From Halosolutus gelatinilyticus (GTDB taxonomy: Archaea > Halobacteriota > Halobacteria > Halobacteriales > Natrialbaceae), in contig NZ_CP095492.1 of NCBI RefSeq assembly GCF_023028105.1, positions 186,001-250,000 on the forward strand: a stretch of 64,000 nt of DNA, written 5' to 3'. The notes under the pieces were generated by a model. It was not told the origin of the DNA, ran no database searches, and was given only the letters and a program-made list of their open reading frames with translations. Both the position numbers and the translations under genes were made by a program. Positions 27,896 to 34,282 of this stretch are shown piece after piece; the stretch's first letter is position 1; the number at the start of each line of letters is the position of its first letter.

Positions 27896-28405
27896 TTAGT
27901 TGAATGACTCGAGTTTCCGAACGAGTTTTGTGTACAAATTTGGTGCACAGTACCAGCCTTCTTCGATCATTGAATCAATTGTCTCACGCGCTTCGGAGAC
28001 GGTAATGTGTCCCTGCTTAGCGCACAAGAGAACGATGTAGGCTGTCCCCCGAGTCTCGATACCTTCGATTTCTGCAGCCGTTCTCCCATAGGCTTCGTCC
28101 ATGACGGCGATCGCATCAAGTGATGCAGCACATCCAAGGACTGCCACATCAGCGTCACTCAAATTTGGGTTTTGTTCTAACCGGCCCACAAGCTGAGAGT
28201 CATCAACTGCGATGACTTCAAAAAGCCCAGCATCAATACACTGCTCGATACGACGAGCATCGGTATACCCCCCTTCAAGACCGGTGGTAACGACCTCCGA
28301 GTGAATTTGTTGAGGAAGATGACACTCTCCATCGAGGTTGGAGACGAGATGGAGTTGATCGACCTTTGCGAGGTAAATTAGCGGCGTCGCGTCGAAAACC
28401 CACAT
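27896..28405 (-). CDS. DUF3368/PIN-like toxin
   Basis: The 169-residue protein has the DUF3368 (PIN-fold) pattern. The N-terminus is V-F-D-A-T-P-L-I-Y-L-A with the first catalytic Asp, an E lies in the helix that follows, then L-S-D-A-D-V-A-V-L near residue 81 and V-M-D-E-A-Y-G-R near residue 100 complete the acidic site. It would act as an RNase toxin needing Mg2+. Its ATG abuts the stop of the upstream UPF0175 gene, giving a classic antitoxin-toxin order. Confidence 0.8.
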   Translation of the reverse strand: MWVFDATPLIYLAKVDQLHLVSNLDGECHLPQQIHSEVVTTGLEGGYTDARRIEQCIDAGLFEVIAVDDSQLVGRLEQNPNLSDADVAVLGCAASLDAIAVMDEAYGRTAAEIEGIETRGTAYIVLLCAKQGHITVSEARETIDSMIEEGWYCAPNLYTKLVRKLESFN

Positions 28406-28696
28406 TCACAGTTCCTCGAGATCGTCTTCGAGGTGATCGCCCGATACCCACGTGATGTCATGATCCTTTGCGAGCTGGGCAAACTCCCAGACGGACATCT
28501 CTGCAAGTTGGGCGGCCTTCGTGAACGAAATTTCATCAGCAGCGAGCCGTTTGAGCGCTTGCTCTTGACGCCACTCTTCGAGCCCTTCCGAGAGGAGTTT
28601 TCGTACTGCTGTGCTCCGATCTAGCCGTTCTTCTTCGAGGTATTCTTCCAGTTTCCCCTCGAGATCATCCGGAACCCGAGTCGATATCGTTCCCAT
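28406..28696 (-). CDS. UPF0175-type antitoxin with ribbon-helix-helix N-terminus
   Basis: The 96-residue product starts at the ATG at 28696 (M-G-T-I-S-T-R-V-P). Residues 3-45 look like a ribbon-helix-helix DNA-binding arm. Residues 50-80 carry the UPF0175 helix pair F-T-K-A-A-Q-L-A-E-M-S-V-W-E-F. It probably binds the downstream DUF3368 toxin and represses the operon. AT-rich sequence just upstream (about 28705-28725) offers a TATA box. A longer frame extending to 29347 is an antisense artefact of the neighbouring UspA region. Confidence 0.8.
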   Translation of the reverse strand: MGTISTRVPDDLEGKLEEYLEEERLDRSTAVRKLLSEGLEEWRQEQALKRLAADEISFTKAAQLAEMSVWEFAQLAKDHDITWVSGDHLEDDLEEL

Positions 28697-28749
28697 GGTG
28701 TATGCTATGTTTGCAATGTATACAAGCGTTTCGCTCATTCTGGTTGCCC

Positions 28750-29754: not shown

Positions 29755-31089
29755 TCAGTCGGTCGTCTGTGCGTGTGCCTGCTGGCCGCCGGCGCCGCTC
29801 TCGGCGAGGTCCGATCGGTGCAGCCAGTAGAGGGCGGCGAAGATGACGGTCGCGATCGCGTTCAGCACCAGTTTGTAGTCCACCTCGATCGAAACGTCCG
29901 CGACGGTCGCGCTCGACTGCGGCGGAACGAGCCCCAGTCCGGCGAAGAGGAAGTGGACGACGACCCCCACGACGACCGCGGAGACGAAGATCATCCCGGA
30001 GAGGACGGCAGCGAACGTCGTGCCGTAGTACTCCCGGTAGGCGTCGACGATCGGCGGGACGATCAGGTCGGCGTAGATATACGAGAGGACGCTCCCGAAC
30101 GGGAGGCCGTTCGTGTAGAGCACGGCCGCGAAGGGAACGTTTCCGACCGAACAGACGAACGTCGCGACGCCGATGAGCGCGCCGACCGCGGACGTCCAGA
30201 GGATGTACGTCGGCACGCCCAGGACCGGTCCCGAGAACACCGACGTCCACACGCTGCGGGGGATGAACCCGGCGACCAAGCCAGCGAAGACGAACCCGAT
30301 CGCGATCTCGTCCCAGAGCATTCCCCACTCCTTCCACTGTTTGTCGGCGAGCGCTTTCCACCCCGAGAGCGACGTCGCCTGCTCGCGGATCGTCGTCTCC
30401 GCCTCCTCGGGGTCGAAGCTCTCCATGCACGACTTCGAGCAGAAGTAGTAGGTCCGCCCGTCGACCTCCGTGGCGTACTCGGTTTCGTCGGGGTCGACCT
30501 CCATCCCGCAGACGGGGTCCCGCACCGTCTCGGTTCCCTCGTCCCGAACGGTTTCCCGGGCCGTCTCGATCACGCCGTCAGGGACGGCGTAGACGAACCC
30601 CAGCGCCATCAGTCCGATGAGGAGCAGCCCGCCGACGAAGTCGGCCACGACGAACTGCCAGCCCAACAGGAGGAACATCACGATCCCGATCTCGACGACG
30701 AGGTTCGTCGAGGCGAACATGAACGCCCCCAGCGAGGCCGACGCGGACGCACCCTTCTTGAAGAGGTTCTTCGCGGTGGCGATCGCGCTGTAGGAACACG
30801 ACGAGGAGACGAACCCGAACAGCGAGCCGTAGCCGAGTTCCCGCGGGCCGTGTCCTTCCAGCAGGTCCGAGACCGCCTCGGTCGAGGTCCACGCCTCCAC
30901 GCCGCCGGCGATCGCGAAGCCGACGACCAGCGCCCACCACGTGATCCACGCCATGGCGATCGTCGTCGTGACGAACTCGCGCGTCCCGTCGACGAAGAAC
31001 TGCGCGAGCGGTTTCGGCGTCGTACCGATGCCGATACCCACTACCGCGAGCGCGACGACTACCAGTATCGGGTACTCCTCGCGGTCCAT
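29755..31089 (-). CDS. DUF318-family permease with inserted YHS domain
   Basis: This 444-residue membrane protein belongs to the PF03773 (DUF318/ArsP-like) permeases. It has two blocks of four to five helices, each with family motifs: S-S-S-C-S-Y-S-A near residue 95 and F-V-C-S-V-G-N-V-P near residue 312. Between them, at about residues 195-240, sits a YHS metal-binding domain, D-P-V-C-G-M-E-V then Y-Y-F-C-S-K-S-C. A C-terminal helix follows. DUF318 members export metalloids or metals, and the YHS domain could present the metal to the channel. No ArsR-type regulator is adjacent. Confidence 0.85.
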   Translation of the reverse strand: MDREEYPILVVVALAVVGIGIGTTPKPLAQFFVDGTREFVTTTIAMAWITWWALVVGFAIAGGVEAWTSTEAVSDLLEGHGPRELGYGSLFGFVSSSCSYSAIATAKNLFKKGASASASLGAFMFASTNLVVEIGIVMFLLLGWQFVVADFVGGLLLIGLMALGFVYAVPDGVIETARETVRDEGTETVRDPVCGMEVDPDETEYATEVDGRTYYFCSKSCMESFDPEEAETTIREQATSLSGWKALADKQWKEWGMLWDEIAIGFVFAGLVAGFIPRSVWTSVFSGPVLGVPTYILWTSAVGALIGVATFVCSVGNVPFAAVLYTNGLPFGSVLSYIYADLIVPPIVDAYREYYGTTFAAVLSGMIFVSAVVVGVVVHFLFAGLGLVPPQSSATVADVSIEVDYKLVLNAIATVIFAALYWLHRSDLAESGAGGQQAHAQTTD

Positions 31090-31379: not shown

Positions 31380-32708
31380 TTACAGCTGCTTTTCTACCTC
31401 CCGGAGTCCTTCCTTGATCGACTGTCGCTCGAAGTACACGCCCTCGACGGTGAAGACCAGAACGGCGATGACGACGACGAGCCAGAACACCGACGGCATC
31501 TGCGAGTAGAGGTACCAGAGGAGCATGACGAAGAACGCGCCCGAGCCGATCGTACCGACGAGCGGGGGAACCGGGTTGATGTCCGCCTCGTCGCGTTTGG
31601 CCAGCGCCGTCGCGCTCATCGCGCCGAAGACGGCGATGAAGGCGAGCGAGGCGAACTCCACGACGGATTCGAGGCTCCCGAGCGTGGTAAACGCGGCAGT
31701 GAAAAAGCCGATGACGAGGACGGCACGCGCCGGGGCGGCCTGCGCATCCGGATCGCCCATCCGATCGGGGAGGATGCCGTCGGAGATGAGGTTCTTGGCG
31801 AAGATCGCTTCGCTGAACAGCGTCGAGTTGATGGCACTCGCCGTCGAGATGAGCCCGGCGATCCCGACGGCGAGCGCGAGCCACTTCGAAATCACGAGGC
31901 CGCCGTAGAGCAGTGCCGCTTCGGGCTGGGCGGCGACTACCTCCTCCGGAAGCAAACTCGTGATGACGAACCCCACGAGGATGTAGATGAACGCCGCGAT
32001 CGGGATCGAGATGAACGTCGCTTTCGCGAGCGTTTCGTCGGGATCGTCGAACTGCTCCTGATCGTAGAACAGCAGCTGCCACCCCTCGAAGGAGACGAAC
32101 CCGATGGACGCAGCGAGGATCGGGTTGAAGTTGTGACTCGAAAGCGATCGTACGAGCGACGAGAGGCCGGGCTGGAGCAGCTGATTATTGAAGCCGAACC
32201 AGAGTGCGATGAAACCGAAGGCCGCGATCACGCCGGCCTGGATGAACACGAGATACCGTTCCACGGCGGCCGTCGAGCCGGCCCCGAGGAGATTGATTCC
32301 GACGAAGACGGCGATGACGCCGATCGAGAGGAACTGCCGACTCGGCAGCCCCCAGACGTACTCCACGCCGAGCATCATCTGGGTGTACGCGCCGAACGCG
32401 TAGGCGTACATCGCCATCGTCCCGATGTAACCCACGACGAGCGTCCAACCGACCACGCCCGCGATCCTCGTCCGGCCGGTGAGTTCCTCGATGAACGTCA
32501 CCGAGCCGCCGTTCTCTTCGGTCAGATCGTTGAGCTTGATATACGAGTAAGCACAACAGAGGACGACCACGGTCGCGATGGAGTACGCGAACCAGGTCAG
32601 CACGCCCGCGGCCGCCACGACGATGCCGATCGCCGCGTAAATCCCTCCGCCGACGATGCCGCCGACGCCGAGGGCGACGGCCGTCCCCACGCCGAAGTCC
32701 TGGCTCAT
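31380..32708 (-). CDS. APC-superfamily permease coupled to a solute-binding protein
   Basis: This 442-residue amino acid/polyamine/organocation-type secondary transporter has about 12 helices. Helix 1 carries G-V-G-G-I-V-G-G-G-I-Y-A-A-I-G, the unwound substrate-binding segment of the family. The protein ends in a short amphipathic tail after the last helix and lacks the UspA domains often found on haloarchaeal homologues. The start at 32708 is fixed by a 4-base ATGA overlap with the upstream binding-protein gene. A longer frame running to 33281 is an artefact. The tight coupling suggests that the lipoprotein delivers substrate to this permease. Confidence 0.85.
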   Translation of the reverse strand: MSQDFGVGTAVALGVGGIVGGGIYAAIGIVVAAAGVLTWFAYSIATVVVLCCAYSYIKLNDLTEENGGSVTFIEELTGRTRIAGVVGWTLVVGYIGTMAMYAYAFGAYTQMMLGVEYVWGLPSRQFLSIGVIAVFVGINLLGAGSTAAVERYLVFIQAGVIAAFGFIALWFGFNNQLLQPGLSSLVRSLSSHNFNPILAASIGFVSFEGWQLLFYDQEQFDDPDETLAKATFISIPIAAFIYILVGFVITSLLPEEVVAAQPEAALLYGGLVISKWLALAVGIAGLISTASAINSTLFSEAIFAKNLISDGILPDRMGDPDAQAAPARAVLVIGFFTAAFTTLGSLESVVEFASLAFIAVFGAMSATALAKRDEADINPVPPLVGTIGSGAFFVMLLWYLYSQMPSVFWLVVVIAVLVFTVEGVYFERQSIKEGLREVEKQL

Positions 32709-34282
32709 GATCGGACCCTCACGACCTCGTCCTCGCCCGCGAGTCTGGGGTTGACTTCGGCGATCGGATGCACCTCGAAGTTTCGCACTCGTTGGGCCGT
32801 GGCGAAGCTGTTCTCGAACGAGCAAATGGGGAGAACGACGCGATCGGTGAGCAGTTTCGTGATCGCCGTCTCGTAGCGCGATCGCCGGCGCTTGCGGTCG
32901 GTCATCGATCGCGCCTCGGACAGCGGTTTCATGATTTCGTCGTCGGTGGAGAAGATCCCATTCGTTACTCCCAGCATGTTCTCGTGGAACGTCGGGTAGA
33001 GAAACGAGTCTGGATCGGCCGTGCCGGCGATCTCGCCGACGAACACCGAGTAGTCGCGCTCCGAGCCCGAGACGTACGATTCGAGGTAGCGCTTCCACGG
33101 TTTCGCGGTCACGAGCGCACCGTGGCCGGCGTCCCGAATGCCGCCGGCGATCGCCTCGCCGAGTTCCTTCCACGTCGGGTCTTTCGACGTCAAGATCCTG
33201 AGGCGCCCGGGCGTCTCGTCGGCCTCCCGAAACAGCTGTTTCGCCCGGTCCGTACTTTTCCGGTTGGGAATTTCCTTCCACTCCCCGATCGGCATGTTCC
33301 AGTCGTTCGCGATCCGTCCCGGTAAGGGGCTGTACACCCGATTTCCAACGGGTTTGATGAACTCGTCGACGGCTTTGTCCACGTCGATGCAGTAGCTGAT
33401 CGCCTCCCGGACTTTCGGGTCGGTCGTCGGTCCCTCGTTCAGATTACACCCGAAGTAGTAGGTTCGGTACCCGTTTTGCCGGTACACGTCCGCGTCGGTC
33501 ACGTCGCGGATGTCGTCCGCAATCTGCGGATTTACCGGCTCGATCGCCTCGCTTCGCCCGGTTCGGAGGCTCATCATCTGGGTGAGCGGCGACTTGACGT
33601 ACACCATCGTTAGCTGGGCAATCTCCGGCTCCGGTCGGCCCCAGTACTCGCCCCAGCGGACGAGCTGGGTCTTCTGTTCTTCGGAGAACTTTCGCACCTC
33701 GAACGGCCCGCTCCCGATCGGTTTCTTCGCGAACGCCGCCCGATCGGCTTCCCGAGCCTCCTTGGGGACGATCGGCCGTGTGAGCGCGTACGAAACGGTC
33801 GGAAACGGATGCCGAAGGTGAAACCGTACCGTGTGATCGTCGAGGGCCTCCACCGACTCGATCGCGTCGACCTCCCAGGCTGGCGCCGTTCCCTCTTCGA
33901 CCGGCGCCTCGAACGAGTACATGACGTCCTCAGGCCTGACGCGGCGATCGTTCTGAAAGCGCGCCGCCTCGTCGATCGTCACGTCGATCCGCCGTCCGTC
34001 GTCGGCCGTCGTCGGCCGGCCAGCCGCGATCTTCGGAACGGTCTCGGTGTCCGGACCGTAGGCGTAGAGCCCGTCGAAGATCCGGTTGATCGCCTGCTTC
34101 GAACCGACGTACTTCGCCTCGATCGGATCGAGCGTAACCGGCGGTCTGAGGGTCCCGATCCGAAGGTGCGGACCCGGCGGCGTTCGAGCGAGGGCCGAAC
34201 AGCCCGCGAGCGCCGCGGCGCCCGCGGCACCGATTCCCGCGAGTAAATCTCGCCGGTTCGTCGAGTGGGTATCTCCGTCCAT
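32705..34282 (-). CDS. Family-5 extracellular solute-binding lipoprotein next to APC permease
   Basis: The 525-residue protein has Tat motif N-R-R-D-L-L-A-G at residues 9-16 and lipobox L-A-G-C near residue 28. The mature part is a SBP_bac_5 (peptide/nickel class) fold: T-L-D-P-I-E-A-K-Y near residue 50, the V-R-P-E-D-V-M-Y-S-F motif near residue 117 and S-G-P-F-E near residue 196. Such proteins normally feed ABC permeases, but here the next gene, overlapping by 4 bases, is an APC secondary transporter and no ABC subunit is in the operon. It may serve as a high-affinity receptor for that permease, or dock with an importer elsewhere. Confidence 0.85.
   Translation of the reverse strand: MDGDTHSTNRRDLLAGIGAAGAAALAGCSALARTPPGPHLRIGTLRPPVTLDPIEAKYVGSKQAINRIFDGLYAYGPDTETVPKIAAGRPTTADDGRRIDVTIDEAARFQNDRRVRPEDVMYSFEAPVEEGTAPAWEVDAIESVEALDDHTVRFHLRHPFPTVSYALTRPIVPKEAREADRAAFAKKPIGSGPFEVRKFSEEQKTQLVRWGEYWGRPEPEIAQLTMVYVKSPLTQMMSLRTGRSEAIEPVNPQIADDIRDVTDADVYRQNGYRTYYFGCNLNEGPTTDPKVREAISYCIDVDKAVDEFIKPVGNRVYSPLPGRIANDWNMPIGEWKEIPNRKSTDRAKQLFREADETPGRLRILTSKDPTWKELGEAIAGGIRDAGHGALVTAKPWKRYLESYVSGSERDYSVFVGEIAGTADPDSFLYPTFHENMLGVTNGIFSTDDEIMKPLSEARSMTDRKRRRSRYETAITKLLTDRVVLPICSFENSFATAQRVRNFEVHPIAEVNPRLAGEDEVVRVRS

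Follow-up and report, generated by a model that had tools for sequence, protein, structure and literature searches.

Can a solute-binding protein (SBP) of an ABC importer family serve a secondary transporter? The question is raised by two overlapping genes of Halosolutus gelatinilyticus, located in a 64-kb stretch of its genome that was analyzed as a whole (the window). The original prediction described them as a family-5 Tat lipoprotein and an APC permease, sharing four bases (ATGA) and located away from ABC ATPase and permease genes. It proposed that they may form a receptor-assisted secondary transporter. Our analysis confirmed the description of the locus (Table 1). Pfam assigned both proteins to the expected families, with a second match of the permease to AA_permease (2.1e-17). 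The N-terminus of the SBP, RRDLLAGIGAAGAAALAGC, contains a twin arginine and a lipobox, and R10, R11, G27 and C28 are invariant across APC-linked SBPs. Within the window, no ABC genes are found within about 19 kb of the pair.

Table 1. Features of the SBP-APC pair in H. gelatinilyticus; positions are those of the window.
Feature	Position	Strand	Size	Basis or remark
SBP ORF, family-5 solute-binding lipoprotein	32705..34282	-	525 aa	Pfam SBP_bac_5 2.4e-58
SBP Tat signal and lipobox	34199..34282	-		RR at residues 10-11, Cys28; sequence
APC ORF, ApcT-like permease with predicted LeuT fold	31380..32708	-	442 aa	Pfam AA_permease_2 1.7e-31
ATGA overlap, SBP stop and APC start	32705..32708	-	4 shared bases	
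APC Gln157 codon, column of ApcT Lys158 (proton-coupling lysine)	32238..32240	-		Alignment of paired and solo permeases
APC TM7-TM8 loop (EL4), residues 255-273	31890..31946	-		Suggestive only

The pair is located on a 562-kb contig (C2). According to Pfam, it is flanked by an ArsP/YHS permease gene downstream and a divergent Na+/H+ exchanger gene upstream, neither of which is an ABC component. The ArsP-type permease (29755-31089) carries an inserted YHS (TRASH-like metal-binding) domain. At 27896-28735, a UPF0175 gene is directly followed by a DUF3368 gene, similar to a toxin-antitoxin (PIN-like) pair. SBP_bac_5 and AA_permease are the only transport families that Pfam identified in the pair itself; the TRAP components (DctP or TAXI SBP, DctQM) and the TTT components (TctC, TctA, TctB) are absent from the locus. 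The window also contains two ABC systems of the Opp/Dpp type, located at approximately 3.0-9.7 kb and 53.9-59.6 kb; both include an SBP of their own. The entire genome encodes 18 SBP_bac_5 genes, four AA_permease_2 genes and about a dozen Opp/Dpp ABC loci.

The two genes are strictly associated in the family. In a survey of 125 genomes of Natrialbaceae, orthologs of both the SBP and the APC permease were found in the same 22, H. gelatinilyticus included, always adjacent and on the same strand. Neither ortholog is present in the other 103 genomes, and two other sampled genomes of Halosolutus lack the pair. Adjacency is more than chance, because it is kept without exception wherever one of the orthologs occurs in the family. 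In the 21 further genomes, the orthologs are 58-62% (SBP) and 77-80% (APC) identical to those of H. gelatinilyticus. The 4-base overlap is found in 20 of the 22 pairs, the remaining two having an 8-base overlap and a 2-base gap. The overlap suggests that translation of the two genes may be coupled. The flanks are variable. A convergent downstream gene (about 826 aa) is present at 14 loci and a divergent upstream gene (about 1400 aa) at 10; the H. gelatinilyticus pair has neither. No third gene was found to accompany the pair at all loci. The differences in the flanks therefore indicate that the unit consists of two genes.

The SBP-APC pair is real and widespread in Halobacteria. An order-wide survey of 392 genomes brought the total to 43 pairs after removal of duplicates: the 22 in the family, eight additional pairs with the SBP gene first, and 13 with the APC gene first. 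The eight SBP-first pairs are found in other families (G176, G151, G310, G161, G383, G375, G323 and G236). Their SBPs are as little as approximately 49% identical, and the 4-base overlap recurs in these more distant pairs. The APC-first type occurs in Haladaptatus, Halorussus, Haloferax massiliensis, Haloarcula amylovorans, Halomarina and others. Most spacings of this type lie between a 4-base overlap and a 3-base gap (-4 to +3), and the two genes of Halomarina sp. BND7 overlap by 4 bases in the official annotation. In a few pairs (G074, G310, G323, G236 and G161), one of the two genes is interrupted by a stop or frameshift or is truncated. No SBP-APC fusion was seen among the pairs. At four loci (L139, L148, L246 and L248), a bacterio-opsin-activator-like or other HTH regulator gene adjoins the pair, often divergently. 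L069 (G024) has, in addition to the intact pair, a remnant of an APC permease several kb upstream (L069:3082-3615), about 50% identical over residues 201-373. A second SBP 5 kb upstream at this locus was considered and rejected, since only the permease remnant is present. Public records label the two halves 'ABC transporter substrate-binding protein' and 'APC family permease'; the link between them has been hidden because they are annotated as separate ABC and APC proteins.

Relatives outside the pairs show the usual arrangements. For 58 SBP relatives that fall outside the clade linked to APC permeases, we fetched the surrounding DNA. Of these, 53 have genes for permeases and ATPases of Opp/Dpp-type ABC importers within approximately 6 kb, mostly in SBP-B-C-D-F operons. 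Three of the 58 (L168, L230 and L231) are family-5 SBPs that are relatives of ABC-linked SBPs but stand alone, with neither ABC permease nor APC genes detected within about 6 kb. Two loci are hybrids (L152 in G415, L153 in G296), in which an APC gene is located 0.3-0.5 kb upstream of a full SBP-DppB-C-D-F operon on the same strand. APC and SBP-ABC genes can therefore be neighbors without replacing each other. Conversely, no ABC subunits are found in the operon of any APC-linked SBP, that of H. gelatinilyticus included. No SBP gene is found near the 20 closest unpaired APC permeases that were fetched, indicating that the fold does not need an SBP. SBP relatives from outside Halobacteria (21-27% identical) have no APC gene in the fetched flanks of up to 6 kb, in which a very distant APC gene could escape detection.

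Phylogenetic analysis separated the paired SBPs from those of ABC importers. In the SBP tree (68 rows, PMSF), all 27 APC-linked SBPs form one clade (100/100) that contains zero ABC-linked members. Its sister clade consists of SBPs in SBP-B-C-D-F operons. Within it, SBPs of the SBP-first type form one clade and those of the APC-first type another. The SBP-first and APC-first permeases also each form a clade in the APC tree (100/100). Their joint monophyly is compatible with the data (AU p = 0.389), and the partner permeases may represent either one lineage or two. The trees thus suggest that a single SBP lineage abandoned the ABC partnership and changed its transporter partner, a direction of change that is our interpretation of unrooted trees. 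Protein distances of the SBPs and permeases are correlated (Mantel r 0.94 for the SBP-first type and 0.86 for the APC-first type). A profile of the SBP clade, applied without regard to genomic context, gave no matches between 701 and 632 bits and identified two new loci, both adjoining an APC gene. In both trees, the H. gelatinilyticus genes group with copies from other families (f14 and f5) and not with those of their own (f1), and Halalkalicoccus-type copies are the closest to both. Judging from these groupings, the SBP and APC genes were probably acquired by H. gelatinilyticus as a unit through transfer. The nearest paralogue of the SBP in its own genome is only 32% identical and belongs to its own ABC operon. 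Hence the pair is conserved well beyond H. gelatinilyticus, in the 22 family genomes and in other families, and its SBP does not cluster with an ABC system of the same genome. These two results support a dedicated SBP-APC unit.

The predicted structures are those of the respective families. The AF2 model of the SBP (pLDDT 89.7) matches best the DppA-type structure 6ofq in the PDB (TM 0.83), and the modeled fold is the standard Venus-flytrap fold of family-5 binding proteins. The model of the permease (pLDDT 85.1) has ApcT as its top match (3gi8, TM 0.86). The ligands of solved family-5 members are peptides, metal chelates, sialic acid and opines. Dipeptide specificity was considered for the SBP and rejected. 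R383 and D436 of DppA are missing in both the APC-linked and the ABC-linked haloarchaeal SBPs, and therefore we assign no ligand.

The SBP and the APC permease are very likely a functional unit. Because they have been retained together for long, through evolution and gene transfer, the pair probably works as a two-part uptake system. We moderately favor the reading that it is a two-component, binding-protein-dependent secondary transporter. In such a system, the lipid-anchored SBP would capture a scarce ligand at the cell surface. It would then dock on the outward-open, ApcT-like permease with the LeuT fold and hand the ligand over, and the permease would carry it inward without ATP. The original prediction is thus upheld with respect to a dedicated unit, while docking and the hand-over from SBP to permease are steps that we infer.

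The main rival explanation is that the SBP is an orphan that serves an Opp/Dpp-type ABC importer encoded elsewhere, and that the APC permease is a co-expressed but independent transporter, which might, for instance, handle that nutrient or one related to it, or export a product. MppA in E. coli works with OppBCDF. Potential partners exist in the many Opp/Dpp ABC loci of the genome, the SBP is predicted to retain an ordinary family-5 fold, and at the hybrid loci an APC gene is followed by a full operon for an SBP and its ABC importer. However, ABC-linked SBPs are missing from the SBP clade, the nearest ABC-linked paralogue is distant and has an operon of its own, and genome G071 has no other SBP match at E <= 1e-40. 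One DppB-like gene of the H. gelatinilyticus genome (C2:501573), the only one with no SBP close by, was considered as the orphan partner and rejected. It is located in a cluster of sugar hydrolases (glycosidases) and is related to a different subfamily. This gene is part of a DppB-DppC-like pair (L242:9559-11619); the closest ATPase and SBP genes related to it are about 12-16 kb away. On balance, we regard service to a distant ABC importer as unlikely.

A sensory or buffering role is less probable still. The lipoprotein would bind the substrate of the permease at the surface for signaling or regulation, and the permease would transport alone. The haloarchaeal lipoproteins BasB and CosB serve chemoreceptors, and a bacterio-opsin-activator-type or other HTH gene adjoins several pairs. 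However, such a gene is missing at most loci, including that of H. gelatinilyticus, and no transducer gene was seen accompanying the pair. It is very unlikely that two unrelated transport genes are simply co-regulated and have stayed adjacent by descent: genes may stay neighbors in close genomes, as the downstream gene shared by 14 loci illustrates, but this pair is kept in differing contexts and families, in both orders and after transfer, with SBP identity down to 36%.

Returning to the binding-protein-dependent transporter, the permease sequences provide clues to its energy coupling. Lys158 of ApcT is linked to proton coupling (PMC12764776), and its column is tied to the role of the Na2 site in APC permeases (PMC8399266). 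The equivalent residue is Gln in 30 of 30 SBP-first permeases (the one in Table 1 and those at L135-L142 and L069-L088). It is Lys in all 30 solo, all nine APC-first and both hybrid permeases. With Gln in place of the usual proton-coupling lysine, the energy coupling of the SBP-first type probably differs from that of ApcT. Glu208 in TM6 is likewise fixed in SBP-first permeases.

We also searched the permeases for a docking signature. Residues 26, 29, 31, 32, 253, 263, 267, 268 and 271, in TM1b and the extracellular lid, are common to both paired types. Among them, E263, L267, Y268 and L271 of EL4 are kept in paired permeases but not in most solo ones. This set largely holds in loci that were not used to find it, and does not hold as a set in hybrid or solo permeases. 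However, other pairs of clades share 2-26 such residues, a range that the paired permeases do not exceed, and the enrichment on the outer side has p = 0.11. The residues were therefore dropped as a docking signature, and are suggestive only, a hint for mutagenesis.

Comparison with known systems places the pair in a small group. The original prediction named TRAP and TTT as the binding-protein-dependent secondary transporters. Both belong there, and before 2025 they were the only ones known to use soluble SBPs, but the list is incomplete: TAXI-GltS (BP0403/BP0402 of Bordetella pertussis) was proposed in 2025 based on linkage and translational coupling, evidence of the kind presented here, and in addition on fusions and ligand binding (PMC12344293). 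TRAP systems, of the DctP or TAXI type, resemble the proposed SBP-APC system in combining an SBP with a gradient-driven membrane protein. Their SBP and membrane families are unrelated to those of the pair, and TRAP is a known elevator. TTT is similar in its SBP-dependent secondary transport, with families that do not occur here. TAXI-GltS is the closest parallel. Its SBP gene is translationally coupled to that of a secondary transporter, as the overlap suggests for the pair, its SBP is a lipoprotein, and the genes of the original SBP partner are absent. It differs in combining a TAXI/TRAP-type SBP with GltS, a predicted elevator, whereas the pair combines an ABC family-5 SBP with a LeuT fold, and it has fusions, unlike the pair. 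From the Opp/Dpp ABC importers, to whose family 5 the SBP belongs, the pair differs in having no ABC permease or ATPase subunits. The DppA residues missing from its SBP are not conserved in the haloarchaeal ABC-linked sister clade either. ApcT (MJ0609), like other APC amino-acid permeases, has the fold predicted for the APC partner, and it is the closest in sequence among solved structures. It has Lys158 where SBP-first permeases have Gln157, and to our knowledge it does not use an SBP.

In the open-access papers and the minority of preprints that we searched, no description of an SBP-APC system was found. LeuT folds are described as rocking (PMC10862720). Earlier SBP-dependent secondary transporters are elevators or thought to be so (PMC12344293), whereas the APC partner, whose model matches the LeuT-fold ApcT, is not expected to be one. 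We give even chances to the broader proposal that a family-5 SBP from an ABC importer lineage feeds a rocking-bundle permease with the LeuT fold, a further kind after TRAP, TTT and TAXI-GltS. The authors of the TAXI-GltS study asked why so few secondary transporters use SBPs, suggested that an elevator may be required, and pointed to further classes as the test (PMC12344293). The SBP-APC pair provides such a test. The fold predicted for its permease is not that of an elevator, homologues of this natural module are numerous in either gene order, and each half has unpaired relatives that can serve as controls. The pair is also an example of an SBP lineage that has apparently changed its transporter partner. 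If true, an SBP-dependent transporter with the LeuT fold would disprove the suggested elevator requirement.
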